Assembly (NCBI GenBank): GCA_029204225.1
Contig: CM055113.1
Location: forward strand, 23,084,405-23,148,404
Direction of reading: 5' to 3'
DNA: 64,000 nt
Source: Diphasiastrum complanatum
Lineage: Eukaryota; Streptophyta; Lycopodiopsida; Lycopodiales; Lycopodiaceae
Position numbers and translations under genes: made by a program. Below, piece by piece: positions 14,396 through 54,654 of the stretch; within the stretch, counting starts at the first letter, position 1, and each line of letters begins with the position of its first letter. The notes under the pieces were generated by a model. It did no database searches, was not told the origin of the DNA, and saw only the letters and a list, made by a program, of their open reading frames with translations.

Positions 14396-15360
14396 TCATA
14401 GGTAGGGGTGACCACATGAACATTTTGTCAAACCTGTCAGCACTGGATGAGGGAGACCCAACTTAACTCGAAGAGCGGTAACAAAAAGCTCCAAAGAAAG
14501 GCGCAAGTGTGGAACAACAGGGCGCACGACAAGCCAAGCACCAGCACCTGGTCCTGCACAAGACATAAGACGAGCCCGAGTCTCATCAGAAGGTGAATCA
14601 CTGAGAAATTGAGTTAAAGCATGTGAGTGGAAGCACTCCAAAAGATACTTTTGAAAATGAGCATGTTGATGGCTAAATGAAGTCTCAAAGGGAGGCAAAT
14701 AAGCTCACACAGGTGGAGGGATGAGATCCTTGGCCACACGAAGATGTTGTTGGAAAGGAAGAGTGTCTGTTTCTACATGAGCTACTGAATCAAGAAGAAT
14801 GGGCTTGTTGTCCTGTTGAAACCAAGAGATAAGTGCAGAGGCAACAAGGGCCCAACTTCCCAGAAAAGCAACTGGAGCAATAGAAGCTGTGCAAGAAAGA
14901 CCGGCACCTCCGGAAGAAGTGGGAAGAGAGACTTGTCGCTTAACAAACTGACCATTGGGAATATGAAAGGATTCTGAACCCATCAAGCGACCCAAAAAAA
15001 CCTGATAAAGTATTATCGAAATCCTGTAACAAAGCCAAAACATCAAGAGAGAGGAACACACCGTAGAATATAATTTGGCCGTTGAGCGAAGCATTGAGTG
15101 AGAATTCCTAGAGCAACTTGAGCGTTGCCAAGCTTTGGTAGCAAATCAGCGTGACGAAGATGTGCGTCCAAAGTGTTCCGCAAAGAGGAAGTCACAAAGT
15201 CCGAGAAACCTATTGGAATACCAAGCGCTCGAATCCCATCAGCCGGAGTATCGAAACATGTAGGTAAAGGGAGCTCAGGAAGGAGGTCCTGAGAACACCA
15301 AGCAACGCACTTAGAGGGACATCAAAAGTCATTTGCCCCTTTAAGAGAGTAGGTAGTTGG
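14396..15360 (-). pseudogene. Reverse-transcriptase-associated relic
   Basis: Minus-strand fragments in several frames match the C-terminal region of a plant retroelement or RT-like protein type that I recognise by pattern. First comes a segment around 15340-15120 (DGIRALGIPIG, then GNAQVALGILTQ and QRPNYIL), then LPTSSGGAGLSC with AFLGSWALV (14810-14960), then GAGAWLVVRP, FVTALRVKLGLP and a Cys-rich CSCGHP end (14400-14580). Frameshifts separate the pieces. In related proteins this region follows the RT domain and ends in a zinc-binding motif. No catalytic RT residues are present here, so this is a 3' fragment of a dead copy. The exact class (LINE or a domesticated RT family) is uncertain. 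Confidence 0.7.
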
Positions 15361-15402
15361 CAATGTATGGCGGAAAGCATTTTTAATTTTGAAGTAATCT
15401 TT

Positions 15403-16084
15403 GTTGGAATTTAATCCAATTCCTAGTCCCAACAGCCCTCCTTTGTTCTTTAATTTTTACTCTATCAAATGTAACCTGTAGAAAATGAATAAACAGTCTG
15501 CATTTTTGAACTGATTGTTGCTACAGTCTGGATTTTTACACATGTTTTATGACAGCCGAAAAATGCGGAAAACTTGACACTGTGTTTTTACACGGGTTTT
15601 CTAACAAGCAAAAAATGCGACACTTGCCCTACAAAAAGCCGAAGGTGTCTTTATTGGCAATAGAAAATATGGGAAAAAATGTGACTTTCTGATAGAAAAC
15701 AGACAAAATCTCTGAGATAGGATTTGCGGAGCTGTTGGAGGACCGATCTTGATGAGATCTAGCCTCAGTGAAGCCAACGAATTCTACGACAAAGATTTGG
15801 GTGAAAAATAAGGGATTTTGACAGTATATCAGGCTACTTTCTCAGAATCTGACCATGGTCAGAATTCATGGAGGTGATAAAATGAAAGATCAGGATCTGT
15901 TAGGGCTGCAGACAGATTGGTAAATTTTGATATACCTGTTTGGTTTGGAAAAATGTCACTTGGGTCACTTCTTTTCAAAGAAAATATCCAAGTTGACTCT
16001 TTTGTTACTTCTCCCTAGCTTGATAAGTTGCTCTGCAGCTCATGTAGGACCTGGAGAGAAGACTCGTGCTGTGGTTGGAAGATA
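15403..16084 (+). repeat. LTR-like segment
   Basis: Starts TGTTGGAATTTAATCC, close to the LTR start TGTTGGAAATTAAGCC seen on the minus strand at 63588, and shares the short text 'aaaagccgaaggtgt' (15634 and 63119). It stops where the inverted-repeat arm begins at about 16085. No coding frame is seen in it. A solo or truncated LTR is the best reading; similarity to the 63 kb copy is patchy. Confidence 0.4.
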
Positions 16085-16579
16085 GACATTAGAGAAAATA
16101 TGGGCCCAAAAAGGGCCCTATAAAAAATTTCATGTAGGAGCGAGAAAAATAACTATAAAGTAATTATAATATCAATTTCTAACTTCTTTACACATCTGTC
16201 CGCACTACTTTCCATGTAAATGAATGCACCTTAGTTTAGTCACATCAAACTTCACTAGTGCTTAACCATAATTAAAATATAATTTTTTAAAATGTTGAAA
16301 TATTCCCTCTTAATAGTTGGGAACACTCAAAAATTTGAATTAGAAGTGACATTTCTGAAAAAAGCCTACACCATCTCTATCTCCAGGGTCAAAAACAAGT
16401 GTTTAGCGCCATCTCTATTTCCAACAGAGTCGTTAGCGCCATCTCTAGCTTTGTTATTGTCATTGTGTTGTTTGTTACTATACTACTGTACTGATGATAA
16501 AGCTTTATCATCTTCATGTGAATTTGTCACCAGAATATGCTCCGCTCATGACAAGAAATTCAAAGCAACCCAAATTGTC

Positions 16580-19058
16580 AATTTTGATATGGTTCGATAC
16601 AGGGAGGAAAAGCTAAAGCATGTAGATTTATGGTCATCAGGAATATGGTATTTTAATGATCCATGTTCATTGCAACATCCAGATTTTCATTCGGTGAGTC
16701 AGTTAATAATCTATATGTGTCATGGTAAAAATGGCCTTTTGGGTTACTGTGAGAATTTGATGCTCTATGGGAATGCACATTCAATGCAAAGAATACATTA
16801 TTTGGAAGAGGAATTAAGGAAAATATCAAAGGAGTGCGAAGAAAAATCTACAAAGATGAAAACTTGTTTGGATGAAAAATTAAATGCTCAAGGAGGATTC
16901 ATTCATAATCAATAATTTTGCTATTTATTCATTTCAACTTTCTGTCGATTTGCTTATTATATACTGCTATGAATACTATGAGTGTCCTTATTTCTACTGA
17001 CATTTTCATGAACATTATGTTTGCAATGCAGATCAGCATTGGTTGTTGAAGACCATCTGGCCGATGAGATTTCAATTGGAAACTCACTAGGCTCTATCTT
17101 GACTTATAAATCTATGAAATCAATGTTAAATAATAACAAAATGAAAAAGATTGAGGCTTTAATTACTGATAGCATTATGGATGAAGTTGGAAAAACATTA
17201 GACACTACATTGCTTCAGGGGGCATGTGACTTTTCTAGCATCAGTAGGGAAGCATATGCAACAATGTTTAAGATGATAAAGGAGGCATTTGCACAAGTGA
17301 ATATTAAAAAGTTTCCAATCCCACGACCATTTCATCTTTTAAAAAAAAAGACATGTTAAACCATGGTATGCAGACAATAGTTGGTAATCCATCTCATATC
17401 AATGAAGTGTATTGCTCGAAAGGAGAAAGTCTAGCTTATAACAATTCCAACAATCTATTTATTGACATTAATCAATTATTCATCATAAATTTTTACAGTA
17501 TTACAAATGAGAATGTCAATAACAAGTTGATAGTTGTTCTCAAGTCAGATGAGTCTGAAATTATAAAAGGACAAAAAATGGAAAGAGTCAGTTTCACGAT
17601 CATGAATGGAGCACTTTCAAATTCAGAAGACTCAGAAAGCCTCAATATTAGTGTTCAATTAGAAAATGATATCTGGTGGTTAGCAGCATTTCAGGTATAG
17701 TAATTCCTTCGCATAATAAATAGGGATAATCATTTGAATATGAATTTCATATCTAAAATCTTATCTGTGTTAATATTATGAGGATAATCACGTTTTTATA
17801 TTCTCTTATAGGTGCTGAAAGAAGACCATGACATTCTCTCATAGATATTTAATAGAACATCATATCCTGCCACCAAAAAAAATCACATGGAGGGAGTTCC
17901 ACTCAATATTCCTGGAATTGGCACTTTCAACATCGAATGACATTTAGCCGGAGATCTGAAGACATTAAAATGTATGTCCAATGTATCTCATGGCGCTAAC
18001 TTTAAACACCCTTGTTTGTACTGGATGAAAACAACAAAAGACATGACAAGGAGTACATGAATATCAAGAGATCGAGAAGATCCTAATTGGAAACCTGTAC
18101 TACCGATTCCTCTACGAAATGTTCATATCTGTACATTGCATGCGGAGGTGCATATTATAGAAAAAATAATATATCTTCACGCCTTGTTTGCATGGAATTC
18201 CGAGCCAGAGGCTTCTATGAAGGAAGCTATTTCCAGATTAGAGGATGTGTTGTCCAAAGCAGACTTACATAAAGACCACTTTAAAATAAAAATAGATGAC
18301 AAGCTATCAGGTAACACAAGAAATATTCCATGCAAGCCGAGCATTGGAGGATCTAAAGCTCGAATGTTTTTATCAAATTATTCTGGCAAACAATCTAAGG
18401 TTCAATACATGGTTTGGAAAGAAATTATTGCAGCAACTCAAGATTTCGAAGAAGAAGGTTCTACTCATATACACAAAGTAGAAGTTAGGAAAAAGTTAGA
18501 CAACATGGTGAAATACTTGAGAAAAGATAAAATTTCAAATACTGATTCACAAATGATACAGAAAACAACCAATGGATTTGTGGATACAATTCAAATGGCA
18601 TGGGGTGTTGATCATATAACACATTATATGGTAAGATTTTGATTTTACACTACGATGGACAAATATGTGCAATTAAACTAGATACTTTTGGTACTGATAT
18701 AGATTATGTTTTTATGATATGCAGCACATATTACGACATCATTCGACATTCTTTGCAAGAAATAGTGGAAGTCTTAGCATATGGTCATCGCAAGGAATGG
18801 AAAAATATCATTGGCAAGCAAGAGCGGCATTTCATAAAAGTGCACAACATGGCGGGACTAGCACAAAAAATAGCTATATATTGTAACTTTTCCAATGGTT
18901 TTACAGAAGAATCCAAATTCGTCATAATACAAAATCGACGGATTATAAAAAATTTCAAAAAGCATGCAAATTTATACAAGCCAATAGGCTATAGACACAC
19001 AATAAAATTTTGTATATTAAATAAAAATATTTACAAAGTACAATTGAGCAATATCTAA
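16580..19058 (+). pseudogene. Transposase-like gene, copy A (broken)
   Basis: Multi-exon gene homologous to the minus-strand copy at 26634-29389. Pieces are: exon with DMVRYREEKLKHVDLW and HSMQRIHYLEEE (16590-16915); exon from an acceptor near 17031 with SALVVEDHLADE to LENDIWWLAAFQ (to 17694); exon from about 17815 with EGVPLNIPGIGTFNIE, HLAGDLKTLKC and KHPCLYW; then RNVHICTLHAEV and a helical region to a GTAAGA donor at 18631; and a last piece (18726-19058). Breaks are TAG at 17842-17844 (Trp in copy B), TGA at 17938-17940 (Trp in copy B), the second Cys of CLYC changed to Trp, and a TGA at 18058-18060 shared with copy B. The domain order and Cys/His pairs suggest a DDE-type transposase relative, family not identified. 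Confidence 0.65.
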
Positions 19059-20554
19059 TCTGCTTCCGATATTTTTTCCAATGAAAGTTGCAACTTAGAA
19101 TCATGCAACAATTTTCTTCTTTTGTATGGATCCAAGAGCTCATAGTTTTCATGCTTACTCAGATCAACGTAAGCAGCATACACTGCAAAATGAGATGATC
19201 TGAGCATGTAATTCACTGGTCCATATCCTAAAATTTTAACCGCAATAGTTTTTATTACAAAAATTATTTTATGCACCTTTATTGAAATTATGTCCTCCAA
19301 GAAAATGAGACAGTGCCTTATTGCCATAATCATAGTTTCACCATGTTGATGGAACTTTGAATGAGCAACACTTATATCATTATTCTTGAAGGACTTCAGA
19401 TAGTGCCCTAGTGCATGATCTCTTGAAAATTCTCCATCAAAAGATCTTTGCCCTCCTCGACGAATTGCGAAATCAGCAAGAAAAATTGTTTTCTAAAATG
19501 ATAAAAAACAAAGTAAGCTTCAGTATATAAACTGACATAATGAATCTACTAGTACTTGATAAGATACAAAAATTTACGCATTTGGCTTTGTCTTCACAGA
19601 TTACTGTCTCTCCATCAATATTATGTCCACCTTTTGATGTCAATATTGTTGGTGAATAGACAGTTGGCTATGGAAAACCAAGTTGACTTTGGATTCTAAG
19701 AAACTCCTCCTCAGAAGGTAGATCATCTTCTTTGTTGCGCATTTCCTCCACAGTCATTTTCAAGCAATCTTTCCCTAAATAAAACTTATCATTATGTACA
19801 TCGTCAACACCAGGGAGAAGATCATCAGAATCAATTATATCCAAAAATTCATCTAGCTCTTTGCTCAAAATGCAAAGAGTCACAGCTTCAGTGAAGTAAA
19901 AAAGATCCGATATATCCGATATTGTCAAAAAGAAATTATTATCTATATTATAAGTAGGCAAAGTGATCAAAGATTTATCAGAAGGAGAAAGGGTAGTGGG
20001 GGTTCTAGGGTCTATAAACGTAGCCCTATTTCAAGCAGGATCAAAATCAGAACAATCATCTAAACAAACACGCGTATCAATAAAAAAAAGTATCTATATC
20101 TACAATCTTTGATTTTTCAGACTTTGTACCACTAAAAGAAGCTGTTTCACAAGTGGAGGGAACAGCCTCCAAATCGTCAAAAATATTTAACAAAAGAAAA
20201 AAAAACAAAAGCAAATCTACATTTCTTATTATGAATTGGGCACTCATCTACAAACTTGAAATCATTATGTAACTTGGTAAACATTCTGTCAAGCTTAGCT
20301 TTATAGATATGCTTGTCGAGTGCCACCAGGTCCTAATAATGAATCATGTTCTTATTCTGAGATCTGAATAAGGGAGTACTGAGCAGGGACTTATATCTAA
20401 GATATATCTTAGAAAATGCCTCCACACCAGGGCCCTCAGTTATAGAAGGTAGAATAAAAAGAAAAGAAGAAAAAAGAGATTTAAAGTACTCCAACCTATT
20501 AGTAATACCAAATTCATGAAAAAAAGAAAGCAAAGTAGATTCAAAATTAGACAT
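19055..20554 (-). pseudogene. Acidic-protein gene, copy A (convergent to transposase-like gene)
   Basis: Minus-strand gene starting at the ATG at 20552-20554 (MSNFESTLLSFFHEFG). It continues with LPSITEGPGVEAFS, a TAG at 20333-20335 (CAG in copy B), then the acidic segments CILSKELDEFLDIIDSDDLLPGVDDVHNDK and EEMRNKEDDLPSEEEFL (19668-19970). After a probable intron come downstream exons with IRRGGQRSFDGEFSRDHALGHYL (19440-19500) and GYGPVNYMLRSSHFAVYAAYVDLSKHENYELL-type text, ending SLEKISEAD and a stop at 19055. The 3' exons exist only in this copy. Function unknown. The two genes of the arm meet tail to tail at about 19055, as in several two-ORF DNA transposon groups. Confidence 0.55.
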
Positions 20555-20589
20555 ATTAAACAAAAACAACGAAACTAATATTTTAAATA

Positions 20590-21045
20590 TCGCTCTCAGG
20601 CACGAAACCTAGATCAGGCAAGCACAACAAGGCAACGTGCGCTCGAGAGAGATATTTTAAGTTGGAGTATCGGATCCGAGTGCAAGAACAAAGAGCACAA
20701 AAGAAAAGAGATGCGAAGCGCACTTGAATGCGATATCGGACGATGCAGTATCGGATCCAGGCGCAAAATAGTCAACGAATGGGTAATGAGAGCAAGCAGC
20801 ACGCTTGAAATCGATATCTGTCACGTGCGAGAATGACATGCATCGAGAGTGCATTCACGCACGTGTCTCAGCCCACGTGGCCTAATAATAAGGTCATCAT
20901 TGTCAATACGGACAGTCCATGTGGGCTAATAATATATCGACACGTGTCCTCGCCGTCTTTTCACATGTGCGGAAATTTCGTATATATAAGTCGAAAATTT
21001 TATATTTTTTCGCAAAATTTTCGCTTTTAGTTCCCAATATCGCTC
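20590..21045. promoter_or_regulatory. Promoter/leader region of left arm with G-boxes
   Basis: Contains CACGTG at 20822, 20860, 20874 and 20941, a TATATATAA box at about 20980 pointing right, and leader motifs with ATATCG next to GAGCGC/TCGAGCGC (20635-20660, 20735-20760, 21030-21045). Compared with the right arm it lacks ~150 bp that there hold the TATA box of the acidic gene. No H3-like frame follows on its right side. Confidence 0.6.
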
Positions 21046-22814
21046 TAAATGTGCCTCTTTAATCGGATGGATCTAAAGGGCAAAGAGGGGGTTTTATGGA
21101 TCTATTCTGAGTGAATAGTTGGTTATAGTACCGGGTTTCGATCCAATGGGGAGAGGGTAAATGGAGTAATAGGAATGGGGATCTAAGTCTACTAAGGATA
21201 TCAAGCTTAGTGTGGGATCTAAAAGTGGAATGGCTTAGATCTAAGGGTGAGATTCATTATCCTTTCTTTTTCTTTTTGGTGTTTTCTTGATTTTACTTTT
21301 CTCTTTTCTTGGTTCCGTTGCTTTTGGTTTATCTAGGCATCCTTGGATCTAGATCTTCTCCTCAAGAGGTTGATTTTCTCAAGGGAGGACCTTAGTGATC
21401 TCTCTAAAATGTAGATCTAACACCTATTTTGGTTGTGTGTGGATTTTATGGATTAGTTTTAGAAACTAGAGAGATGAATGCTTATGCTAAAGATCATTTG
21501 TAATTGTGATTAACAAAACATAACAAGCATCTATCATCCACAAGAATCACAAAAATTCAAAAGAGGAGGGCTTTTGCAAGCAAAAGATAGGAAGGAGGAG
21601 ATACTCTCTCACACACACACAACTCTATTAATGAAAAAGGTGGCTCAAAAATGGTGTCACATGCCCTTATAGAGACATTTCTAGGGTTTGGGTTTTTGTT
21701 CACCCAAACCATGTGCCATAATATAAAGTCCAATCACAAGGATCCACCAACACTAAGCAAGCCAACAATAAGCAACACAAGGAAATCGGACGGTGGACAA
21801 ACCAACCCAACCAAATCTAGATCTTACGGATCTAGCCCCCAAGCTATGGATCAATCTTCACGAGGAAAGGATGAATTACACCAGCATCATGTAGCTACTA
21901 ATCACACAATCAAGCATGCACCAATGGGTATACTTATACCCTCCAAGGCTCATCTGGACACCTATGCAGCCTATTTGGGCTGCATCATCCAGTTCCCCTA
22001 TGACTCATTGATAGACCCATAAAAATCCACCATCATGAGTTTAGGCCTCCAACCATTAATTATGACCATATGCACATGAGGGTTCCAAACCCCTCATAAT
22101 CATAATTAACTTACGGGTCGAGGTAGGTCTACTGACCTCTAGCGGGATACGCTATCCGAGACCAGTTGTGGGCATGACACATAACAACTTGACTTCACAA
22201 AGTTTTTAAAACCGAATTGCATTTTTAACTACTTGGGTCCCTTTTCACTTTGGGCCCATCTGAGAGTGAATATACCTCTAGTTCTCGCGCGCCATAGGCT
22301 TGCGGGTACAATGCACCTTCTACGGGTGTCTGACATTACATAATACATTTTACGTAGATTTAATTCTTTTGCCAACTCTGCGATGCTTTTATTCCCATAG
22401 TCGTAATATATGGTCCTTTATCTTATATGAGTCACAAGGATGTTCTCCCACCTAAAGAATTTAAATATGAACAGCTCCTAAAAGATTGGGGCCCTAAGGA
22501 ATGTGGAGATGTCAGGAATACTCCCTAGCATCTCCAGTTACCCCACTTCAGCATTTTTAAGCCAAGTCATCTACCACATTGGGGGCCTCACTTTTTATAC
22601 TTATAGTTATATAATTTTGTTTTATGACCTTGCCAAACTCATTTTGTAATGCAATGCTAGTTGCTACAAGGCACAAAAACTAGCAAGAAAGAAGAGGAAT
22701 ACTAAGAATTAGTAGTAGTAAATAGTATTCAGTAGTTCTGCTTTATTTCAGCATATGTCATTGACAAACACATCGATTCTTTGTATACTCTATTGTAGCA
22801 TTTGAATGATAAAG

Positions 22815-22986
22815 TATTCATTCATGCTTTTATCTTCATTACTACAATATCATTATAACATTCAAACACTCTTGAGATAGGTACAATCATCAATATCCAA
22901 TATTCATTCATGCTTTTATCTTCATTACTACAATATAATTATAACATTCAAACACTCTTGAGATAGGTACAATCATCAATATCCAA
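22815..22986 (+). repeat. 86-bp tandem duplication
   Basis: Two adjacent near-identical 86-base copies (22815-22900 and 22901-22986), starting tattcattcatgcttttatc. Confidence 0.95.
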
Positions 22987-24079
22987 ATGGACTGAGTGAG
23001 CCTGATAAATGTCACTGCAAAGAACTGTCAGTCAGACCATTAGCAAGGTTCTTTAAAAAGATTTGACCCAGTTCACGCTTAAGAGAGGTTACCAAAGGCT
23101 GTCAGTACTTTCTAATAGCATTTCTTTTTTGTTTGACATATTATCTATCATGTACGATAAGATTGGTGTTAACGATCTGGTCTGTGAGCAGCCAACTACT
23201 CTGATGGAATCGTCTACCCACACTTGATTCCGCTACTGCTCAGATGCTCAATTGCTATAGCCGCCTAATTAACCAGCCGGAGTGGACTTTGTCTTGGGAA
23301 CATAACACACGGCCAGGACCGGTACTACTTTGCTGTCAATGGATCAGAATCTGACAAACTTATGACAAAAACAATGCTCTTGGTCTCACAGATCTTAACT
23401 TTCACAAATCTGAATGCGATGGAGAAGACTTCTGAGCCTAGCCCCCACAAGGCCAATGCAATGTGCATGGAAAGGGAAGCGAAACTCACACACACTGGCC
23501 TTGCACTGCAGTAATCTTCAGACTGTGGGCAGCCTTATCCCAGTCATCTTCTGCTTATCTAGAATGATGCACCTCATGTCTCTCCTGCTACAGGCTCATT
23601 CAAATTGCCTTCCAGCTGCCCACGTGAATACTACACAAACTCACAGCCACTGCAGCTCCCTTGCACCTTCACGACACTCTCCTTCTTAACTGGCCCCCAC
23701 AAACTTCAACATGATGCCTCCCATTTCCAATAGGGCCTCTTTCTTTGATTATTAGGGTGGTTTCAAATCAGTTGCACTGATTAGTCCATTTTTGTGAAGT
23801 TGCCCCTGGACTAAAAAGTGGGACTGAGTTGCCCCTACGTGGCATGGGTCCTATGCCACCTCATTTGCCACATGTAAGTTTGAAAGTGGGGGAGACCCAT
23901 TTTTCCTTCGTGGACCAATGGGAGGATTCCATTTTAAATTTGCGACTCGTCAGGCACTATAGTGTGTAGCCGGCCTTAAGCTCATGTTCATTTAAAGAAA
24001 GGGCTCAACCGACGCATGAGCTAGAATTATTATGTTGAGCATTGTAAACCCTGAATTTGAATTTGAGGTCGTTGAATGA

Positions 24080-24171
24080 GAAATCCATGTCATCAAATTA
24101 GTATGGAAAAACAATTCCACCATAAGAAATCGATGTCATCAAATTAGTATAGAGAGACAATTCCACCATAA
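24080..24171 (+). repeat. 46-bp tandem duplication
   Basis: Two adjacent copies (24080-24125 and 24126-24171) of a unit containing 'atgtcatcaaattagtat' and 'acaattccaccataa', differing at a few bases. Confidence 0.93.
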
Positions 24172-24392
24172 TCCTTGGTTTCTACTACAAATATCCAAAC
24201 AATGTTCTATTACTTATCACTATACAATTATTTTGTGGCAAGTTATGACTTATCTCAGATAGTCTGCACCTTTGTTTCGATATTAAGTAATTCACGACAA
24301 ATAATAGTAAATTGCATCATAATGTCCATAAAACATATTTAAATAGGCATTACAAAGCCGAATATTTTGGGGCAATTTGAGATAGTTGGCGC

Positions 24393-24836
24393 CTATGTTT
24401 TGATATTGAGTAACTTTTGACAAACAGTACATTGCATCACAATGGCATTATCAACATGTAGACCAGAATATCTATCCCGAAGCCTTTTGAGAATGACGAA
24501 ATCCTTTGGCATGATGGTGACACGCTTACCATGCACTGCCAAAAGACAAGTATCCTCAAAAAATTGGGACAGAAAATCTTCTGCAGCACCCTGTAAGGTC
24601 TGCATGGCTGTCACGACAAAACGTACATTCAGCCCAAGTGACAGAGTGACATTCCGTACAGATCGGTCGAAAGGAGCTCTAGGGATCAACAATTCAGTTG
24701 ATCTCTAGAGTTTTTTGATCCCCCTCAGCCAGACCTGCTTCCTGCCATGCCTACGGCCAGTACCAGGGGGAACACGAGAATGGGATGGTTGTACAGTGGT
24801 TATGGCAAGGGTAGTGGATTTGGTCTTGGCCATCAT
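24393..24836 (-). pseudogene. Histone H3 variant-like gene (CENH3-like) with in-frame TAG
   Basis: Histone H3 forms the nucleosome core. Starting at ATG 24836 or 24833, the frame reads MAKTK (canonical MARTK), a divergent basic tail, LRGIKKL, then TAG at 24705-24707 where H3 has Gln. It stays in frame through RSTELLIPRAPFDRSVR, VRF, AAEDFLSQFFEDT, LAVHGKRVTIMPKDF and LKRLRDRY, with a stop at 24393. STELLI, PF..VR, FEDT and KRVTIMPKD are H3 signatures. LLIP.APF, AAEDFL and KDF resemble plant CENH3. The N-tail is ~12 residues shorter than H3 and there is a ~20-residue C-terminal extension. No intron interrupts it. It lies at the inner edge of the right arm and shares a divergent promoter with the acidic gene. 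The TAG suggests a pseudogene unless it is read through or is a sequencing error. Confidence 0.82.
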
Positions 24837-24904
24837 TCTCAGAAGAAGAAAATTAACAAAAAAAAGTTTGAACAAAAGAAAAGTGGATGGAAACAAAAAA
24901 ATTT

Positions 24905-25100
24905 GCGATAAAAGGGCGCTTGAGATCGATACCAAAACTGAATATCGGTTTCGAGCGCAAGATCTAAACAGATTATTTGAATAAAAGAGATGCGCGCTCA
25001 AAAGCGATATTAAACTACCAGCGGTATCGGACTCGAGCGCACTGTGAGAGGGCGGAAGCTTGAACGGTGAGAGAGCGCGCTTGAGAGCGATATTGGGATC
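24905..25100 (-). promoter_or_regulatory. 5' leader of the H3-like gene with repeated motifs
   Basis: Between the TATA box (about 25147) and the H3-like ATG (24836) the leader holds repeated pairs of 'ATATCG' or 'TATCG' with 'TCGAGCGC' or 'GCGC' (around 24920-24960, 24985-25040 and 25073-25093). The same motif pairs recur on the other side of the promoter (25445-25690). Confidence 0.55.
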
Positions 25101-25139
25101 GAAAACCAAAAATTTTGCAAAAAAAAATGAAAATTCCGA

Positions 25140-25415
25140 GGACTTATATATACAAAATTTTTGCACATGTGAAAAGATGGCCAAGACACGTGTTGTCAGA
25201 TGATTGGTCCATGTGGAATGTCCATACTGACAATGATGAGGCCACGTGGGCTCGAACACGTGCACCAATCCGTTCTCGACGCGTGTCATTCTCGCACGTG
25301 ACAGATGTCAGATCAATCATTCTAGGTACGACGCATTAATTTTGACCAATCACAAGTCGACACGTGTTCCTTCTCCACTCCTCCACACGTATGAATTTTT
25401 TTTTATAAATAGGTC
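25140..25415. promoter_or_regulatory. Bidirectional promoter with five G-boxes
   Basis: Two divergent TATA boxes flank ~250 bp: TATATAA on the minus strand at about 25144-25150, facing the H3-like gene, and TATAAATAGG on the plus strand at 25404-25413, facing the acidic gene. Between them lie CACGTG at 25187, 25243, 25257, 25295 and 25361, plus CCAAT-type motifs near 25205, 25265 and 25347. G-boxes are bound by plant bHLH and bZIP factors. The arrangement implies co-regulated divergent transcription. Confidence 0.7.
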
Positions 25416-25719
25416 TTTTTCGGCTCGAATTTTCATGCAAATTTATGATTGTTTGGCCGGATATCGATTTCAAGCGCGCCATATTTTCGGATTACCCTCC
25501 TTTGACTTATTTGCGTCTGGATCCGATACTCACTCGTCCGGTATTGCATTCAAGCATGCATTGCATCTCCTTTCTTTTGTGCTTTGTATTCTTGCGCTCG
25601 GATCCGATACTCCAACTTGTAATATCTCTCTCGAGCGCACATTGCCTTGACGTGTTGCCCGACCTGCAGTTTGCGTTTGAGAGCGATATTTGAAATTTTA
25701 CTTCTGTTGTTTTTGTTTA

Positions 25720-26928
25720 AAATTCTAATTTTGATTCTAGTTTGCTTTCTTTTTTTCATGAATTTGGTATTACTTATAGGTTGAAGTATTTCAAATCTCT
25801 TTTTCCTCCTTTTCTTTTTATTTTACCTTCTATAACTGAGGGCCCTGGTGTGGAGGCATTTTCTGAGATATATCTTACATTTAAGTCTCTGCTCAGCACT
25901 CAGTTATTCAAATCTCAAAATAAGGACATGATTCATTATCAGGACCTGGTGGCACTAGACAAGCATATCTATAAAGCTAAGCTTGACAGAATGTTTACCA
26001 AGTTACATAATGATTTCAAGGCTGTAGATGAGTGCCCAATTCATAATAAAAAATGCAGATTTGTTGATTTTCAGTCTGCTTTTATTTTTTTTCTTTTGTT
26101 AAATATTTCTGACGATTCGGAGGCTGTCCCTTCCACTTCTGAGGCTGCTTCTTCTAGTGGTAAAAATTCTGAAAAGTCAAAGATTGTAGATATAGATAAC
26201 TTTTTTATTGATACGAACATTAATTTAGATGATTGTTCTGATTTTGATCTTGCTCGAAATAGGGAATTGTTTATAGGCCCTAGAACACCCACTACCCTTT
26301 CTCCTTCTGATAAATCTTTGATCACTTTGTCTACTTATAATATAGATAATAATTCCTTTTTGACAATATCGAATATATCGGATCTTTTTGAATTCACTGA
26401 AACTGAGACTCTTTGCATTTTGACCAAAGAGCTTGATGAATTTTCGGATATAATTGATTTTGATGCTGATGATCTTCTCCCTGGTGTTGACGATGTACAT
26501 AATGATAAGTTTATTCAGGGAAAGATTGCTTGAAAATGGATGTGGAGGAAATGCGCAACAAAGAAGATGATCTACCTTCTGAGGAGGAGTTTCTTAGAAT
26601 CCAAAGTCAACTTGGTTTTCCACAACCAACTGTCTATTCACCAACAATATTGACATCGAAAGGTGGACATAATATTGATGGAGAGATAGTAATCAAGGAA
26701 GACAAAGCCGAATGTGTAAGTTTTGGATACTGTGTAGATAAATTTGCATGCTTTTTGAAATTTTTAATAATCCGTCGATTTTGTATTGTGACGAATTTGG
26801 ATTCTTCTGTAAAACCATTGGAAAAGTTGCAGTATATAGCTATTTTTTGTGCTAGTCCCGCCATGTTGTGTACTTTTATGAAATGCAGCTCTTGCTTGCC
26901 AATGAGATTTTTCCATTCCTTGCGATGA
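25720..26928 (+). pseudogene. Acidic-protein gene, copy B (3' truncated)
   Basis: Homologue of the minus-strand gene at 19055-20554. The frame is open from about 25712 through FHEFGITYRL, LPSITEGPGVEAFSEIYL, HYQDLVALDKHIYKAKLDRM, DECPIHNKKCRF (a possible small Cys/His cluster), a Ser-rich stretch (SEAASSSGKNSEKSK) and a strongly acidic half (DDCSDFDLA, DADDLLPGVDDVHNDK) to a frame change at about 26530, then EEMRNKEDDLPSEEEFL. The start ATG of copy A is absent (attct in place of atgtct). After about 26735 the reading enters sequence antisense to the transposase-like gene because the 3' exons are deleted. No known domain is recognised. An acidic, serine-rich accessory protein of a transposon is one possibility. 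Confidence 0.55.
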
Positions 26929-29389
26929 CCATATGCTAAGACTTCTACTATTTCTTGCAAAGAATGTCGAATGATGTCGTAATATGTGCTGCATGTCATA
27001 AAAACATAATCTAAATCAGTACCAAAAGTATCTAATTTAATTGCACATATTTGTCTATCGTAGTGTAAAATCAAAATCTTACCATATAATGTGTTATATG
27101 ATCAACACCCCATGCCATTTGAACTGCATCCACAAATTCATTGGTTGTTTTCTGTATCATTTGTACATCAATATTTGAAAATTTATCTTTTCTCAAGTAT
27201 TTCACCATGTTGTCTAACTTTTTCCTAACTTCTACTTTGTGTATATGAGTAGAACCTTCTTCTTTGAAATCTTGAGTTGCTGCAATAATTTCTTTCCAAA
27301 CCATGTATTGAACCTTAGATTGTTTGCCAGAATAATTTTATAAAAATATTGGAGCTTTAGATCCTCCAATGCTCGGCTTGCATGGAGTATTTTCTATTTT
27401 ACCTAATAGCTTGTCATCTTTTTTTATTTTAACGTGGTCCTTATGTAAGTTTGCTTTGGACAACACATCCTCTAATATGGAAATAGCTTCTTTCGCAGAG
27501 ACCTCTGGCTTGGAAATCCATGCAAACAAGACGTGAAGATAGATTATTTTTTCTATAATACGCACCTCCGCATGCAATGTACAGATATGAACATTTCGTA
27601 GAGGAATCGGTAGTACAGGTTTCCAATTAGGATCTTCTCGATCTCTTGATATTCATGTACTCCTTGTCATGTCTTTTGCTATTTTCATGCAGTACAAACA
27701 AGGGTGTTTAAAGTTAGCACCATGAGATACATTGAACATACATTTTAATGTCTTCAGATCTCCGGCTAAATGCCATTCAATGTTGAAAGTGCCAATTCCA
27801 GGAATATTGAGTGGAACTCCCTCCATGTGATTTTTTATGGTGGCAGGATATGATGTTCTATTAAATATCCATGAAAGAATGTCATGGTCTTCTTTTAGCA
27901 CCTATAAGAGAATATAAAAACATGATTATCCTCATAATATTAACATAGAGAATATATTTAAATGATTATCCCTATTTATTATGCGAAGGAACTGCTATAC
28001 CTGAAATGCTGCCAACCACCAGATATCATTTTCTAATTGAACACTAATATTGAGGCCTTTTGAGTCTTCTGAATTTGAAAGTGCTCCATTCATGATCGTG
28101 AGACTGACTCTTTTCATTTTTTGTCCTTTTATAATTTCAGACTCATCTGACTTGAGAACAACTATCAACTTGTTATTGACATTCTCATTTGTAATACCGT
28201 AAAAATTTATAATGAATAACTGATTAATGTCAATAAATAGATTGTTGGAATTGTTATAAGCTAGACTTTCTCCTTTCGAGCAATACACTTCATTGATATG
28301 AGATGGATTACCAACTATTGTCTGCATACCATGGTTTAACATGTCTTTTTTTTTTAAAAGATGAAATGGTCGTGGGATTGGAAACTTTGTAATACTTACC
28401 TGTGCAAATGCCTCCTTTATCATCTTAAACATTGTTGCATATGCTTCCCTATTGATGCTAGAAAAGTCACGTGCCCCCTGAAGCAATGTAGTGTCTAATG
28501 TTTTTCCAACTTCATCCATAATGCTATCAGTAATTGAAGCCTTAATCTTTTTCATTTTGTTATTATTTAACATTGATTTCATAGATTTATAAGTCAAGAT
28601 AGAGCCTAGTGAGTTTCCAATTGAAATCTCATCGGCTAAATGGTCTTCAACAACCAATGCTGATCTGCATTGCAAACATAATGTTCATGAAAATGTCAAT
28701 AGAAATAAGGACACTCATAGTATTCACAACAATATATAATAAGCAAATCAACAAAAAGTTGAAATGAATAAATAGCAAAATTATTGATTATGAATGAATC
28801 AAAAAGTTCAAGCAATATTCAATATCAAATAAGCTATAACTTACTTGAATGTACAGATTCATCTTTTTCTATGACCTCCTCTGGATGATAGATCACACAT
28901 ATCCTTGTTTACCAGTCTTTTCCTCTTGTTGCTTCGGACTTTTCTGTTGAGCACATCCATATCTTGAACAAGAGACAAATATGAGATACGCATGGATTGA
29001 AATGCAATTTTTATCTCATCATTACTAGTTGTATAATGATGGAAAAAAAATTTCAACCTTTGGATCTCCTCCTTGAGCATCTCATTTTCATCCAGACAAG
29101 TTTTCATCTTTGTAGATTTTTCTTCGCACTCCTTTGATGTTTTTCTTGATTCCTCTTCCAAATAATGTATTCTTTGCATTGAATGTGCATTCCCATAGAG
29201 CATCAAATTCTCACAATAACCCAAAAGGCCATTTTTACCATGACACATATAGATTATCAATTGACTCACCGAATGAAAATCTGGATGTTGCAATGAACAT
29301 GGGTCAATAGGATACAATGTTCTTGATGACCATAAATCTACATGTTTTAGCTTTTCCTCCCTGTATCGGACCATATCAGAAGTTGACAA
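26634..29389 (-). pseudogene. Transposase-like gene, copy B (better preserved)
   Basis: Minus-strand multi-exon gene. Exon 1 (29389-28859) has DMVRYREEKLKHVDLW, a coiled coil (YLEEESRKTSKECEEKSTKMK to MLKEEIQRLK region) and a basic cluster VRSNKRKRLVNK that may be a nuclear signal. After an intron with acceptor near 28665 comes a 226-codon exon (SALVVEDHLADE, NHGMQTIVGNPSHINEVYC, WWLAAFQ; 28675-27995). An intron to about 27905 follows, then LKEDHDILSWIF, FNIEWHLAGDLKTLKC and HPCLYCMK (27901-27660). TGA at 27653-27655 is shared with copy A; then comes RNVHICTLHAEVRIIEK, a helical region (27577-27071) with one break near 27330, and a last exon (STYYDIIRHSLQEIVEV) needing a frame shift. Transposase is an inference from mobile context, size and Cys/His motifs. 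Confidence 0.65.
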
Positions 29390-29915
29390 GGTTGCTTTGA
29401 ATTTCTCGTCCTGAGCGGAATATATTTAGGTGACAGATCCACATGAAGATGATAAAGCTTTGTCATTAGTACAGTAGTATAGTAACAAACAACACAATGA
29501 CAATAACAAAGCTGGAGATGGCTCTAACGACTCTGTTGAAGATTGAGATGGCGCTAAACACTTGTTTTTTACCCTGGAGATAGAGATGGCGTAGGCTTTT
29601 TTCAAAAATGTCACTCCTAATTCAAACTATTGGGAGAGAATATTTCAACATTTTGAAAAATTATATTCTAACTATGGTTAAACACCAGTGAAGTTTGATG
29701 TGACTAAACTAAGGTGCATTCATTTACATGGAAAGTAGTGCGGGCAGATGCGTAAGGAAGTTAGAAAATGATACTATAATTACTTTATAGTTATTTTTCT
29801 CTCTCCTACATGGCATTTCTTATAGGGCCCTCTTTGGGCCCATATTTTCTCTAATAAATGTCATGATTTGATCTTTTTCAATATTTGCAGAAGAGTTTGA
29901 TCTGGATGGTTGCTG

Positions 29916-30600
29916 CTATCTGCGTTGTTGTTGTTGTTGTTGTTGCGTTGAATCTGGATGCTCTGCCTTTGTCTTCTTGTAATTGAAATTCTTCTTCTTG
30001 GACTGATGCTTATTAGAGGACAATGCCATTGACTTGGTACTCGTTGTGGATAAGCTTTTTCTCCGTACTTCTTCTTGCAAAAGACTTGCTGTCAGCTTCT
30101 GAAGAGACAGCGCAGGAGTATTGCTCAAAAGCAATACTAGATTATCAAAGGAGGATGGAAGATTGGCAAGAAGAGACATCGTTGAGTCTTCTTCTGATAT
30201 AGGAAAACCTATTATAGCAAGTTGATTCAGCAACTGTTTGAACTCGTTTAGATAATCATTGACTGAGGTGCTTTCGCTCATTTTGAGTGTGAGGACCTTC
30301 TTTCTCAAGAAGAGACGAGTCAATACATTTGAGGTCTCGTAGATACTTGTAAGAATATCCCACACTTCTTTGGAGGTGGTGTTGTTTGATACATGAGCAA
30401 TCTGAGTGTCTTTTAGATTCAAGGATACAATGGCAAGTGCTTTGCCATCCTTTGCTTCCCATGCTGGGAGCAATTCAGGTTTTGCCAGTCTAGCTATTGA
30501 ACCATTTACGTATTCCCATAGCTCCTTCTCGATTAAGATCATCCTCATCTTGAATTTTCCCATGTGAAAATAATCTCCATTGAACTTGTTGATCAGACGG
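29916..30600 (-). pseudogene. Ty1/copia gag fragment
   Basis: Minus-strand copia capsid protein. NKFNGDYF leads into GKFKMRMILIEKELWEYV, then AIVSLNLKDTQIAHV, VWDILTSIYETSNVLTR, FLRKKVLTLKMSES, LLANLPSSFDNLV and SLLQEEVRRKS. It ends in a Gln run (QQQQQQQRR) at 29916-29945. The zinc knuckle, protease and pol are missing because the sequence ends at the inverted-repeat arm near 29862. The frame is open for 215 codons, but there is no LTR or primer-binding site upstream. Confidence 0.88.
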
Positions 30601-30649
30601 ATTTATGAGGTTGAACTCCCATTATAATCGAGGAACAAAGATTAAACAA

Positions 30650-30870
30650 ACAGATAAGCATGCCCTCTAGAGGTCATGTCGAGTCTCAAGAGGGCTCAAG
30701 ATGCACCTTGATGGCATGCTAGCACCTTGACCTCTATTGAGGCTCCTCAAGAAGCACCCTCTTGAGGGCATCTTGGCTCCTCTTGAACCTCAAGAATCAA
30801 GATGCCCTCAAGTGGGTCTCAAGTGGGCTTAAGATGCACCCTATTGAGCCTCAAGAGGAGCCTACACCCT
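30650..30870. repeat. CTCAAGAGG/CCTCTTGAG-rich repeat
   Basis: About 220 bases in which CTCAAGAGG, CCTCTTGAG and 'caagatgc' variants recur roughly every 15-25 bases in both orientations. The inverted copies allow many alternative hairpins. Confidence 0.8.
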
Positions 30871-31134
30871 ACAAATACTCCTTTTTGTAGGCAAGTTGCT
30901 TAGGCTGCAACAACTCTAGCAACTTGAGCTTAAGTTGCTCAGGCTACAACTACTCAACTAGGTGCTCACTGCTCAACCAGCTGCTTACCATGTCTTGATT
31001 ATATTGTTGGATTGCAATTAATATGGTTCCTTTCTAAGTGTGTGCTTCAATATTTCACTAATCTATTCAATAAATGATGGGTGTCGCAAGCATCAGAAAT
31101 TGACAAAGTAAACTTGCATCTCAAATAGGTAGTG

Positions 31135-31135
<1 letters not shown>

Positions 31136-31168
<33 letters not shown>
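31136..31168 (+). repeat. (CA)n microsatellite
   Basis: About 32 bases of CA dinucleotides. Confidence 0.95.
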
Positions 31169-31169
<1 letters not shown>

Positions 31170-32539
31170 GTTGGAGGGAACTCATGACATAAAACAAAAA
31201 GGGAGCTGGCTTTGTACATTAGAAATCATATATTTATATGTGACACTCTTACACGGGGCAATATTTACAAGGTAACTTGCTTTCATTTTTCTTTGCAAAA
31301 GCACCAAAATTGTACATGCTACTTAATCTCAAATCCTTGCTTAAGAGTCCCCAAGTTCTTTGAAGGTACTAGCTTTCAGCTCATTGTTTTATGTGTGTGG
31401 TTTTGTGTTTAAGGGTTCATTTATAGCCACAAATTTGCCTAGGGGTTTGCTTTCTATTCTCCTCCTTAAATTCTTGATTTTGAGAATATATACTGCTTGA
31501 AATCTATTATAGCCCATTTTGTTTTCTAGCGCTAGAATGTTGTTTCTTTGGCCAAGATGGGATTCTAGTACTTTGGTGATTATGTTCCTTTTTTTGTAGC
31601 GTAAATTAGGTGCCTCATCTTATTGTTGTTGAATATAATATATCCACATGTTATCTACCATTGGCTAGGAATTTTCACGCCCCCTACATCCTAATGAAAA
31701 TATAATAAAATTTTGGAATTCTCGTTTGTACCCTTGATCCCTTTCTGTGATATATTGTTTTGTGTTTTATTGAGGAGGATCAATTTAATAGTTCTTCGGC
31801 CTTTAGCATCTTATGCTTTATTTTCTACATCAAGTTGCAAGCTTTTGCCTTCAAAATTCTTGATCGTACGGTACCACACTATTGCATATTTTCTTATGTC
31901 CCTAATGGATATTGACCATTGTGTATGTCCACAAAATAAAACTTTTCCCACTTGTTCTTTCATCATAGACTTGGCCTTTGAGAGGAGTTAGATTTTTCTA
32001 ATCGTATGTCTTTATCTCATCCATCTATTGAAAGAATAATCTATGGGGAGGGCGTCATTAGTACTTGTATGAATAACGATCGTCATGTTTGATATGTTTC
32101 CAAGTTGTGAATGATATGACAAGTATGGCTAACTAGAAATGATGCAACCTTTGTTGATGCAAGACACTCTTATTTGTGCGACATGCAAATTTTTTTGCTT
32201 TTAATGTTTTTGAATGTTTTTCTTGACCAATAATCATGATTGTATGTGATCAACAGTGTACATGTTTTTAGCTTTTTTCTCTATTTTTGAAGCAGCAAGT
32301 TCATTGTTTAGCTAAGTAATCTAAGAGTTTTTCCTTGAGACATTAATTAGGGACCTTGCAATTATGACCCGCCTTAATGAGGGATGATGATGCACTATTG
32401 GTCTTCTTAAGTAAGTACAATGCTTTTGTGATCTCAAAAGATTTAAATTTTTTGCTACAAACATTCTGGTGAGTTGGTGAGGATTACCGTTCCTCTGCTT
32501 GAAGTTGGGAATTTTTCTCTTTTTTGCCATACAAATGAG

Positions 32540-32690
32540 GATAAAAGGTGACTTTTTTTTTTATATGGGTACATTTTGCACATATTATGATATTATGTTG
32601 TCGTTTTTTGCCCATGAAGATAAAAGGTGATTTTGTTATATGGGTACATTTTGCACATATTATGATATTATGTTGTCATTTTTTGCCCAG
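32540..32690 (+). repeat. ~75-bp tandem duplication
   Basis: Two copies (32540-32618 and 32619-32690), each beginning gataaaaggtga and ending ttttttgccca, differing mainly in a T run. Confidence 0.93.
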
Positions 32691-33294
32691 CTATCCACCA
32701 CATAAATGGGGGCATGCTAGGGAGACTAAATAAGAAACAAAATCATACAAGAGGAGAAAAAAGATGAAACGAACGTAGTACCACGTAATACCCCACTCTT
32801 TGTGTTCATTTTCTAACTAGTTCCTCCTTTACTCGCAGTATATTAATTTTGTATAGCAATGACTTTTGTCTCATGGGTTTAAGAAGTTCGGGCCCGAACC
32901 AACCTTGGACCCACAAGTCTTAAACCATCGTGGAAATTCCCGCTATGCAAAAACCATGCAAAGGCCCTTTCTTAACAAGGTTATCTAATGCGTACTGTGT
33001 CCATTATGAGCCCGATTTTTTTTTTTTAGAGTAACACTTATGATATACTCCAAAATACAAAACCCGCAAAGTTTTTATTGTGTCTATAATGAAATACTAT
33101 CTTTTTTTGGCCTAAGAGAAAATTTTGGGCACCCATGAGTTCACACAGATCTGATGCAGCGAGCCAGGATCAATATTTGAGTCCGGAGTTCTAGATTTCT
33201 GCAAATGGTAATGCGCAACTGCAGACAATATTGCGAATGAATACTACAAGTATATGATCAGTGTCAGGATCGCCATAATTCACTGCTTGCCAAC

Positions 33295-33420
33295 TGTGCT
33301 TCTGGACTGGACTGCAAATTGCAATCCGTGGTCTCCTTTGTGTTTTTTTCTGGACTAGACTGTGCTCCTGGACTAGACTGCAAATTGCAATCCGTGGTCT
33401 CCTTTGGCTTATTTCTGTCC
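33295..33420 (+). repeat. 66-bp tandem duplication
   Basis: Two copies (33295-33360 and 33361-33420) sharing 'tgcaaattgcaatccgtggt' and flanking bases. Confidence 0.93.
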
Positions 33421-35717
33421 AATCCATATGTTGGGTTGTCTGGCAGATCATGACAAGCAACTTTTTGTTCATTCACTACGGGAGTGAGACAGTGAGTGAG
33501 GGAGTGAGTGAGACGCTGCGAGGGAGCACTGAGACTGAGACTAGTACAATTTCTTCTTTACACCACATATGCAGTACATAGTCATCGCCCAATTCGTCAA
33601 ACTCATATCATTTAGACTGTATCCAGCATCTGGGAATTGGAGGATGTGCATTATGGGTCCCCTTTTCTTCGGCATATCCTCCTTCCTTCTTATCCCTTTT
33701 AAAGTCTAGAGACTGGAATCTTTTGCCATAATCTATCCTTTGGACAGAGATTTCAGTACCTGAATTATTTTGCATGCTTACGGTATTCCAGCCTCCGGGA
33801 GTCCGGGGCCCAGGCTCCACCTTCTGCTTAGAAGATAAGAATCAAGAGCAAGATCTGTAATCTCAGATACTTTATTTGGTTGATAGAGTTGCTAGACTAG
33901 AGTAGATGAGATTGGAAGATGATTTTCGTGCATGTTTGAACAGTGACAGTGATGAGTCATGACATGTCCTGTGTATGTGTTTGCAGATCCATGAAATCAA
34001 GGACAAAGTTCGTGCAAGCACATGCTCTTTGCAAGTGGATTGAAAATGATAGTGTTGCAATTTGGCCATCACAGTTTCGGATTTTAGTGATGTCATGATT
34101 CTTTCAAGTCATCAACCAGAAGTGGGCAGCATAATAAGACAAGTAATCAGATGAACACAAAGAAGCATGGTCGTTGAAGAAGGAAGGTAAGGATTTCCTC
34201 TTCAATCTTGGGTGGATTGTTTGTTCTCATGTTGCAAAAGGCAAGTCCATGTGATCAAATTGTTAGAGAGCATACACTTTGAAATCCAAAGAAGATAGTG
34301 AGCACAATTGTTGTCATCATGCATGGTCCTATGTGCAAACTCATGAACATGCTTATAGTTTTTTTGACATTAATGGATGAAGACTTGCCCAATGCAAGGT
34401 CATGGTGAAATGACCCATTAATGTCCTTGTTTCTAAGACTCAACGTTTGTGGTTCATATAATATCAAAGACTCTACTCAAATCTCCATGTATTGTGCATT
34501 CTACTTTGCAATGTTTGCAAACAAACTCCAAAAACTCCATCATACAAATTTGATTTACCTCCCACAATTTGTTTGCACCAAACTCATCAATTATTGTTAC
34601 CTTGTGCGTGTTAGAGGACTTTATATTATATAAAAAAAAGAGCACACCAAAGTCTTTTAGGAGGACACAAGTTCTTCAAATTTGAATTCCACTTATGAAA
34701 GACGTGCAACTTTCATAAACAAGTGTTAAGCTATGTCTATGTTATAACCAAAATAAGATTGGGCACACCATGCAAGGAGGTTGGATGTGTCATACAAGTC
34801 ATTATATACATAACCTAACAATATCCCTAGCAATGATTCAACAATTCATCGGTGTGGAGAATGATGCCCCTCCAGCAAGAACTTGATGGTATGGACTAGC
34901 CACATCAATAAACATATGATAAACAACTTGCATAGATGCAAATGCAACACCTAGTCTCTGTTAGAGGGTATATTTGTCTCCCTCATGAAAGAGATTCTTT
35001 CAAAGAAAAAGATGGAAGTCGAAAAATAGAGGTAAGGATAGTCCAAATATGGCTCCACATGGTGCTTATAGATTGGTACAATAAGTGAATATCAATTTTC
35101 TCCTCATATATTCCATTAAGAGGGTATATTTGTCTCCCTTTTCTTATTAATGTTTAGTGCCAATTACAAAACCCAATAGGAACTTGCAAGCTTGGAAGCC
35201 ATGGTCCATATGACATGGCACATTCCATGGCCTAGAATTAATCCTCAAATTTTATCAGTGTATTTCGCACCACCATTGTAGTGATAGTGGTGGGCTCCAC
35301 AGAATGAAGAGACGTTGTTATCAATCAATATTACCATTAGATGGTTGCTGCACCATGACTGAGAAATTAATCATGATATGCTCATTCCCCAAGATCTAAC
35401 TCACACATGAACACTACTCTAACTCTACTTTTATAACTCCATATAAATGCAAATGTCACATTCATAACTATATCTAGAATTCAAATCTTGCCACTCTATG
35501 AAGATTTTTTACTTTTCAAAGCCTTCAAAAGCCTTGTTTTAGCTTGAATTTGAAACAAAGCTCCACTCCCCCTCCCTTGGGGCCCTACATTGGCATGAGG
35601 AGCATACTAGGAATTTGGGCCTTTTAGCTATAGGTGTGACATTTAACTCATGAACTTGGTTTATTATACTCAACGTAAATGGAACCTAATTTAGCTAGGA
35701 GTAATCTCATCTCCTCC

Positions 35718-42762: not shown

Positions 42763-43488
42763 TGTGAAGTTTTTAGCATGTGTGAACTTCACCACACACC
42801 TTACAAGATCTTTATGAGGTGTTGTGATTGCACAAGAATGATCAATGAACAAATTACTTGAAATATCCAAGGTAAGAGCACAATGGCATACAACAAACTG
42901 AAAAAACTAACTCCTTAATATGAGAGATAGATATCGAAAATATTCTGAGTGCTCACTATGAGAAAACAGCCTGTTCTTGGGTAGAGAAAGAAAATCAACA
43001 CCAAAAACTCAAGTAGAGAGAGAATGAGCCAAAATCACCAGGATCTCAATATTCACAATATGGCAAAACAAGCCAAAGTTTCCCTACATCAAAGAGGCTT
43101 GAATTCCTATAGTGGAGTTGCATGGAAAGTCCACTTCATTTAGTTAACTCAACTATGATAGATCCACATGTAAAACTGCATGCATGGATATTGCATGTAC
43201 TGCATGTCAACTCTCAAAATTACCTAGACATGTGTAGATCATGTAGCTTGGTTTGCATGTTGCATGCACTGATTTCATGTTGCTTGCATGCACTCTGAAT
43301 GAATATGCATGTTATCTAAACTTTTTCATGACATCATAAATGAACCTACCTAACTCAAATTCAACCTATTCTAAGAAGGTTATGTTCTCAATTCACATAC
43401 CTCTATGTACAATAAAATATACAAAAGAAATAAGGTGAGCATAGCCCCCAAAGTCAAGATAGGAAGATATTTTTTACCATTCTTCACA
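42763..43488 (-). repeat. 3' LTR of a minus-strand copia
   Basis: On the minus strand it begins TGTGAAGAATGG at 43488, directly after a polypurine tract (AAGGAGGAG, 43489-43498), and ends ...CATGCTAAAAACTTCACA at 42763: 726 bp, TG...CA. It contains the paired GGGTAGAGA(A/G)AGAA motif (42978 and 43011) found in the 7-12 kb LTRs. Its left end is inserted into the gypsy gag. Confidence 0.8.
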
Positions 43489-54600: not shown

Positions 54601-54654
54601 GAAGGGTTTTAAGATGGTTTATTTTGTCACTTTCGAACCCACATGAATAATTAG

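Follow-up and report, generated by a model that had tools for sequence, protein, structure and literature searches.

The H3-like frame and its surroundings in the window

The window, the whole stretch of 64,000 nucleotides of Diphasiastrum complanatum that was analyzed (C22:23084405-23148404), holds a dead, truncated copy of an H3-encoding DNA element (Table 1). A minus-strand frame at 24393-24836 contains the core of histone H3 around one in-frame TAG (24705-24707), which occupies the position of the Gln in ..KYQKSTELL. Both the frame with its H3 core motifs and the stop replacing the conserved Gln before STELL had been recognized in the original prediction, and both are borne out. With the TAG read as X, the frame matches Pfam Histone (PF00125) at E=1.2e-22 (80.9 bits as compared with a gathering score of 26.4) and canonical H3 chains are its best matches in the PDB (best E 2.3e-17), so that a chance origin is excluded; the portion after the TAG alone still matches Pfam Histone at E=1.9e-18. 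Identity to Arabidopsis H3.1 is 44.5% over 119 aligned residues, which places the protein in the H3 core family, and local alignment scores amount to 201 for H3.1, 198 for H3.3, 196 for CENP-A, 174 for rice CENH3 and 169 for Arabidopsis CENH3. The histone-fold model CENP-T_C also matches, in the full-length copy C577 (29.1 bits, cut-off 28.1). Single-sequence structure prediction of the H3 domain returned no usable model (pLDDT 33).

Table 1. Features of the element copies and of the empty site in the window
Feature	Position	Strand	Details
Left-hand partial copy (5' terminus, gene B, gene A, control region), ending short of the H3 frame	16086..21060	+	collinear with C577 from 5' end to promoter
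Frame continuation past the truncation (apparent extended C-terminus)	24393..24442	-	C577, C6 and C9 are homologous down to 24443 only
H3-like domain, part of exon 1 of the element's H3-fusion gene, TAG-broken	24443..24836	-	Pfam Histone E=1.2e-22
Bidirectional control region between H3 gene and gene A	24910..25700	.	TATA-like, CACGTG boxes, nine TATCG-N(3-9)-AGCGC-like sites in two clusters
Gene A, acidic protein of no recognized family, decayed, divergent to H3	25742..26724	+	ORFs 25742-26533, 26530-26928
Gene B, multi-exon candidate transposase, decayed	26738..29389	-	ORFs 28859-29389, 27995-28675
5' terminal sequence of right-hand copy, ATTAGAGAAAATATGGGCCC	29836..29855	-	same terminus in C577, C16, C10b and left copy
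Empty site homologous to C577 flanks	42828..42829	.	5' and 3' flanks back to back

The window H3 piece is 92% identical in DNA to C577 down to the point where homology ends, and most other copies read on as ..DNASTS.. where the window copy breaks off. The residues after ..LHVDNA (24442-24393), earlier taken for an extended C-terminus, thus fall past the end of element homology and were rejected as part of the protein. Likewise, the absence of introns holds for the window piece but not for the full gene, in which the H3 domain is exon 1 of several. An imperfect direct repeat (24380-24444 versus 24257-24324, 76% over 68 columns) lies at and beyond the truncation and covers the false extension. 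In one further copy (L012), homology to the element stops where it does in the window copy (about +262 relative to the H3 core) and the sequence beyond is different; a recurrent breakpoint is possible.

The H3 piece adjoins a large inverted repeat with arms at about 16088-21049 and 25081-29855, which align in four blocks of 77.5-95% identity. Each arm has the same terminus on its outer side but a different flank beyond it, so that the arms represent two oppositely oriented partial copies of a single element, neither of which has its 3' part. The transposon-like inverted repeat that had been put forward is therefore real, but it does not constitute the terminal repeats of a single element; this reading was rejected, as was an in-situ inverted duplication of a functional gene pair. 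A segmental duplicate at about C22:22.80 Mb, seen in two 10-kb tiles with 99.0-99.2% identity to window positions 14844-34546 in inverted order, includes both partial copies and the TAG.

Besides gene B, the element contains gene A and the H3 gene in divergent arrangement, with the H3 frame running on into further sequence. The divergent promoter common to the H3 frame and the arm gene, proposed in the original prediction, was confirmed and is present in both arms. On its H3 side it contains a TATA-like TATATATAAG (25143-25152), and its TATCG..AGCGC-like sites lie at 24916, 24943, 24992, 25025, 25075, 25462, 25594, 25623 and 25673. When TATCG-N(3-9)-AGCGC is searched with at most one mismatch, 14 of the 18 sites in the window lie within 16088-29855 and four in the other 50.2 kb. 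Upstream tiles of eight copies hold 8 to 16 sites each (in C9, six of them lie about 8 kb off), and most sites in these tiles form two clusters flanking the space between gene A and H3. In gene A, differences between the arms are even over the codon positions (21, 22 and 22), from which it follows that the arms have drifted without visible constraint since their separation. Gene B is a putative transposase: a D..C..C pattern, noticed by eye, is presumably of the type present in some RNase H-fold transposases. Neither genes A and B nor the frames near the 3' end of the element gave a Pfam family above cut-off or a significant PDB match, and the strongest of their sub-cut-off matches were to the unrelated families RGI1 (0.0026) and BLYB (0.0036).

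Several other features surround the two copies. A Copia-type gag at 29916-30563 (Pfam 8.9e-40) adjoins position 29855, where the right-hand copy has its terminus, an arrangement such as insertion of the element into a retrotransposon would produce. A tRNA-Thr(GGT) gene is located at 1041-1113 on the minus strand, and Rfam and tRNA scans of the window returned nothing besides this one tRNA. ORFs at 54239-56977 bear, by eye, what we take to be resemblance to a phytochrome-interacting-factor gene; the main ORF among them had no meaningful Pfam match.

A high-copy element and the question of CENH3

A search of the genome to which the window belongs (1,744,706,496 bases, 5,176 contigs) with the H3 piece yielded 6,338 candidates, and all of the 150 that were scored match at E<=1.2e-43 with 84-99% identity, the window itself aside. 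Twenty 10-kb tiles from ten copies revealed collinear homology in C577 from about -5,919 to +4,009 relative to the H3 core. This copy ends in CATTAGAGAAAATATGGGCCC.. and, on the opposite strand, CATTAGAGAAACTTAGAGCCC.., the short inverted termini of the element being CATTAGAGAAA.. and ..TTTCTCTAATG. Searches with the two C577 ends gave 1,167 and 1,398 candidates, 40 of which were scored each; those scored for the 5' end are 99-100% identical. At least two pairs of ends in the right order and on the right strand enclose an H3 match (C577:70113-80032, 9,920 bp; C8:13166245-13176824, 10,580 bp). Dispersed copies thus share the same termini, as is characteristic of a terminal-inverted-repeat transposon. 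Upstream of the H3 core, 27 of 30 fetched loci (exceptions L008, L011, L028) have element DNA for 300 nt or more; downstream, 27 have more than 300 nt of it (exceptions L001, L002, L012; barely, with 306 nt, in L011 and L022), the two sets of 27 being different and the 30 loci including the window copy and near-duplicates.

The window itself preserves a homologue of the site into which C577 was inserted. Positions 43075-42829 correspond to the 5' flank of C577 (86% over 251 bases) and 42828-42763 to its 3' flank (94% over 66). At the occupied site exactly the element lies between the flanks and no base is duplicated or lost, that is, insertion was precise in this one case, with a target-site duplication of zero length. 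The window sequence concerned (42763-43130) is repeat sequence and represents an uninterrupted homologue of the insertion target. Eleven element ends were searched against the fetched sequence, and both flanks were found at one place for C577 only; in C16, for which both ends are in hand, no flank duplication is longer than one base. Affiliation with the hAT superfamily was not indicated: there was no Pfam hAT match, and no 8-bp duplication exists at the C577 empty site or the C16 flanks.

These flanks and the copies with both termini support the original idea that the histone is encoded by a DNA element or travels with it. The simpler alternative was that the frame is a retrocopy or a diverged pseudogene of host CENH3, in which case other copies of the arm should never carry it. 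The opposite was found. Among 31 non-duplicate copies, 24 have the tail in frame, the window copy being one of them, and the residue at the position of the window's TAG is Gln in 19, a stop in four and His in one. An isolated intronless copy with a host gene as its nearest relative is not what we observe, as the loci have element flanks and the gene is spliced. Since other element copies carry the H3 frame, mostly with Gln at the TAG site, the retrocopy falls.

The resemblance of LLIP.APF, AAEDF and KDF to CENH3, which speaks for such an origin, stands. The CENH3 label itself is not supported: all nine aligned copies have a loop 1 of canonical H3 length and a Phe in alpha-2 where CENH3 has Trp. 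The ARTK start is common to H3 and CENH3 and is not decisive. In the tree that had been suggested as a check, the element copies form one clade (100/99) outside CENH3, the stem of which measures 0.77 changes per site; the references are six sequences without a host CENH3, of which the three CENH3/CENP-A rows do not form one group. On the grounds of the high-copy element context, the canonical loop 1, the Phe and the separate clade we rejected a CENH3 gene or retrocopy and consider its probability practically negligible.

A whole-genome search with Arabidopsis CENH3 singled out no host CENH3. It returned 13 loci at E 3e-28 to 7e-28 (53%), which are taken for host canonical H3, and 137 loci at 1.3e-18 to 4.5e-14 (34-56%), many of them in long open frames. 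Four stretches among the latter (L051-L054) encode three further kinds of H3-like protein, one pair of stretches being 92% alike on two contigs. The protein of L054, an open frame of 527 amino acids, starts with ARTKQTTRPKS and hence has Pro as its ninth residue. One kind groups with the window family at 91/93, another at 78/81 and the third falls elsewhere; a grouping of all four kinds is without support (56/0).

The H3-fusion gene, its tail and its decay

Where the window copy breaks off, other copies continue in frame into a linker with many basic residues and serines. GT-AG junctions in C577 connect exon 1 with exons that contain RHWSL..LNS, CVQQ.DAFSCA.FVLYN and FTLEPYTPDDVY; this gene has one stop and a later frame break, and the first donor reads GC in C9. 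The later exons match Peptidase_C48 in four copies, all of them 2-3 bits below the Pfam gathering score of 20.7 and, being homologous, not independent: C577 (E 0.0016, 18.7 bits), C10a (0.0025, 18.1), C17 (0.003, 17.9) and C9 (0.0038, 17.5). C48 is the sole Pfam family reported for the catalytic exons of these copies, and two reversed control sequences gave none. The exons exhibit an HW..N..Q..C pattern with Asn at the expected catalytic Asp. A fifth, shorter piece from C6, which is without the Cys exon, had no Pfam match, and a PDB search with the protease-like exons retrieved no protease (best E 0.65, unrelated). Moreover, E-values of this order are also attained by other pieces of the element with unrelated families (RGI1 0.0026, BLYB 0.0036). 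An Ulp1/C48-like protease region is thus weakly supported, and the weaker values of C17 and C9 render the label more tentative. A search of open-access papers found transposon-borne H3 without such a region and no histone joined to an Ulp1-like one.

The continuity of H3 with another region in one frame would also suit a tethering factor, the H3 domain of which enters host nucleosomes and guides the transposition complex or new insertions to particular chromatin, the C-terminal part acting as effector; evasion of silencing would not be its purpose. Several histone-fold residues, which we take to be the contacts to DNA and H4, are kept in the alignment as judged by eye. Tethering leaves the loss of K9 and of the K14-K27 segment unexplained, and we regard it as unlikely. 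In all 24 tails position 4 is Lys and position 5 is Ser, whereas position 9 is Ala in 23 and Lys in one. Counted to the Gln before STELL, the tail has 13 residues fewer than in H3, and it lacks the segment that bears K14, K18, K23 and K27. Of the features of a canonical or H3.3 tail (K4, K9, K14-K27 segment), K4 alone is kept.

The copies decay in a pattern resembling that of methylated DNA. In a core of 267 bases, C-to-T changes on either strand relative to the majority of each column affect 120 of 1,054 CHG (0.114), 48 of 496 CG (0.097) and 55 of 2,232 CHH (0.025) site-copies, while the rate of the reverse transition is 0.012. Compared with CHH, Fisher tests return p=4e-24 for CHG and p=1e-11 for CG with site-copies treated as independent, values that are too generous because the copies share descent. 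Due to this decay at CG and CHG sites, element copies have probably undergone methylation. In the core (31 copies) and the tails (24), 13 of 21 in-frame stops are CAG to TAG, a change which is also the likely origin of the TAG in the window. A quasi-palindrome at 24677-24710 (CTCTAGAGATCAAC..GTTGATCCCTAGAG) spans this TAG; templated mutation is an alternative to deamination as the source of the stop.

An uninterrupted H3 domain is present in just nine of the 31 non-duplicate copies, including those picked for long frames, and gene A and B differences between the arms in the window are neutral. Both would be expected if an H3 exon had once been captured by transduplication and copied without use as passive cargo, and gene capture by plant DNA transposons is well documented (PMC3538342). 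The distribution of synonymous changes argues against this. Single-copy variants fit neutrality (22 of 73 synonymous, 0.274 expected), whereas variants in at least three copies are synonymous in 21 of 42 cases (0.288 expected, p=0.003), those in two copies being left out; measured against singletons, the synonymous excess of shared variants is weaker (Fisher p=0.028). The sampled copies were those most similar to the window protein or with long open frames, a choice that may favor conserved sequences, and recurrent C-to-T changes can mimic shared variants. From the synonymous excess in shared variants and the neutral singletons it seems that the amplifying lineage was constrained and that its copies then decay freely. 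Furthermore, dispersed copies share K4, A9, the element control region and a frame into further exons, and further divergent H3-like families exist in the same genome. Passive cargo is therefore rather unlikely in our estimation.

Proposed function and comparison with known systems

Taken together, we consider it probable that the transposon encodes its own H3 variant as an integral gene, which may serve against silencing. That the gene is what we describe is close to certain, while its predicted function as an anti-silencing histone is a realistic possibility that we hold tentatively. The element H3 would pair with host H4 and replace host H3 on the element, to which it could be recruited through the repeated TATCG..AGCGC sites of the control region. 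Plant CMT3 reads H3K9me2 and H3K18 jointly and is thereby stimulated, forming a loop with SUVH4/5/6 (PMC9256654). As the element H3 has neither K9 nor the K14-K27 segment, nucleosomes containing it would be unable to take H3K9me2 or to offer the K9me2/K18 platform read by CMT3, and the loop between H3K9me2 and CHG methylation might thus be unable to close on new copies. A possible activity of the protease-like part is the removal of SUMO or of another modifier. We infer entry into nucleosomes, targeting to the element and lowered methylation from these features; the loss of K9, with Lys found in one of 24 copies, could also be drift, which speaks against the anti-silencing reading of A9.

Should this hold, transposons fight silencing at the level of the nucleosome by means of an unmarkable histone, and a natural K9-less H3 in very many copies provides a test of the need of H3K9me2 for CHG methylation. 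The wider notion that several transposon lineages in one genome encode an H3 devoid of K9 and of the K14-K27 segment and evade silencing by nucleosome replacement is somewhat doubtful.

The element shares with viral histones that selfish DNA encodes a relative of a core histone (PMC9145170). Viral histones, single H3-like ones included, are known (PMC9145170), and a multi-gene element with a divergent promoter could be derived from a virus in which the histone formerly served to package DNA, as it does in some large DNA viruses. In contrast to these, the present element is chromosomal, has terminal repeats and spliced genes and contains no viral Pfam family above cut-off; one scan of IMG/VR with the H3 query gave ten pattern matches and no relative. 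A viral origin is accordingly very improbable. With plant CENH3 the element protein has in common that it is a divergent H3 with LLIP.APF, AAED and KDF, but it is without the longer loop 1 and the Trp, has a short tail and a C-terminal continuation and is encoded in high-copy mobile DNA.

The counter-moves of transposons that were compared here, VANC proteins and fungal TET enzymes, act on DNA methylation. VANDAL21 of Arabidopsis is, like the element studied here, a DNA transposon whose non-coding DNA contains arrays of a short motif, in its case that of VANC (PMC5735166); non-CG methylation is the target there, as it would be here. VANC is a DNA-binding protein and not a histone, and motif binding and demethylation have been shown there, while they are proposed here from the motif array. 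Fungal DNA transposons encode TET/JBP dioxygenases that likely counter silencing by methylation (Kojima, 2025; PMC12730594). The role proposed for the element H3 is of the same kind; TET/JBP, however, is an enzyme acting on methylcytosine and not a replacement histone.

A transposon-borne H3 already has a precedent. Transduplication of an H3-like gene (H3L) in a hAT element was reported for the fungus Pyrenophora tritici-repentis (Manning et al., 2013; PMC3538342), which has 26 very similar H3L genes, a hAT transposase and a separate H3L gene, the function being left open. Both elements are DNA transposons with terminal inverted repeats that multiply an H3-like gene, and an effect on chromatin was raised there and not demonstrated. 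Unlike the Pyrenophora element, the present one revealed no hAT domain, exists in very many copies and caused no duplication at one empty site; its H3 starts a longer spliced gene with C48-like exons, and K9 is replaced. Host, type of element and number of copies thus set the element reported here apart from the Pyrenophora case, and so do its longer gene, its tail and the number of families.
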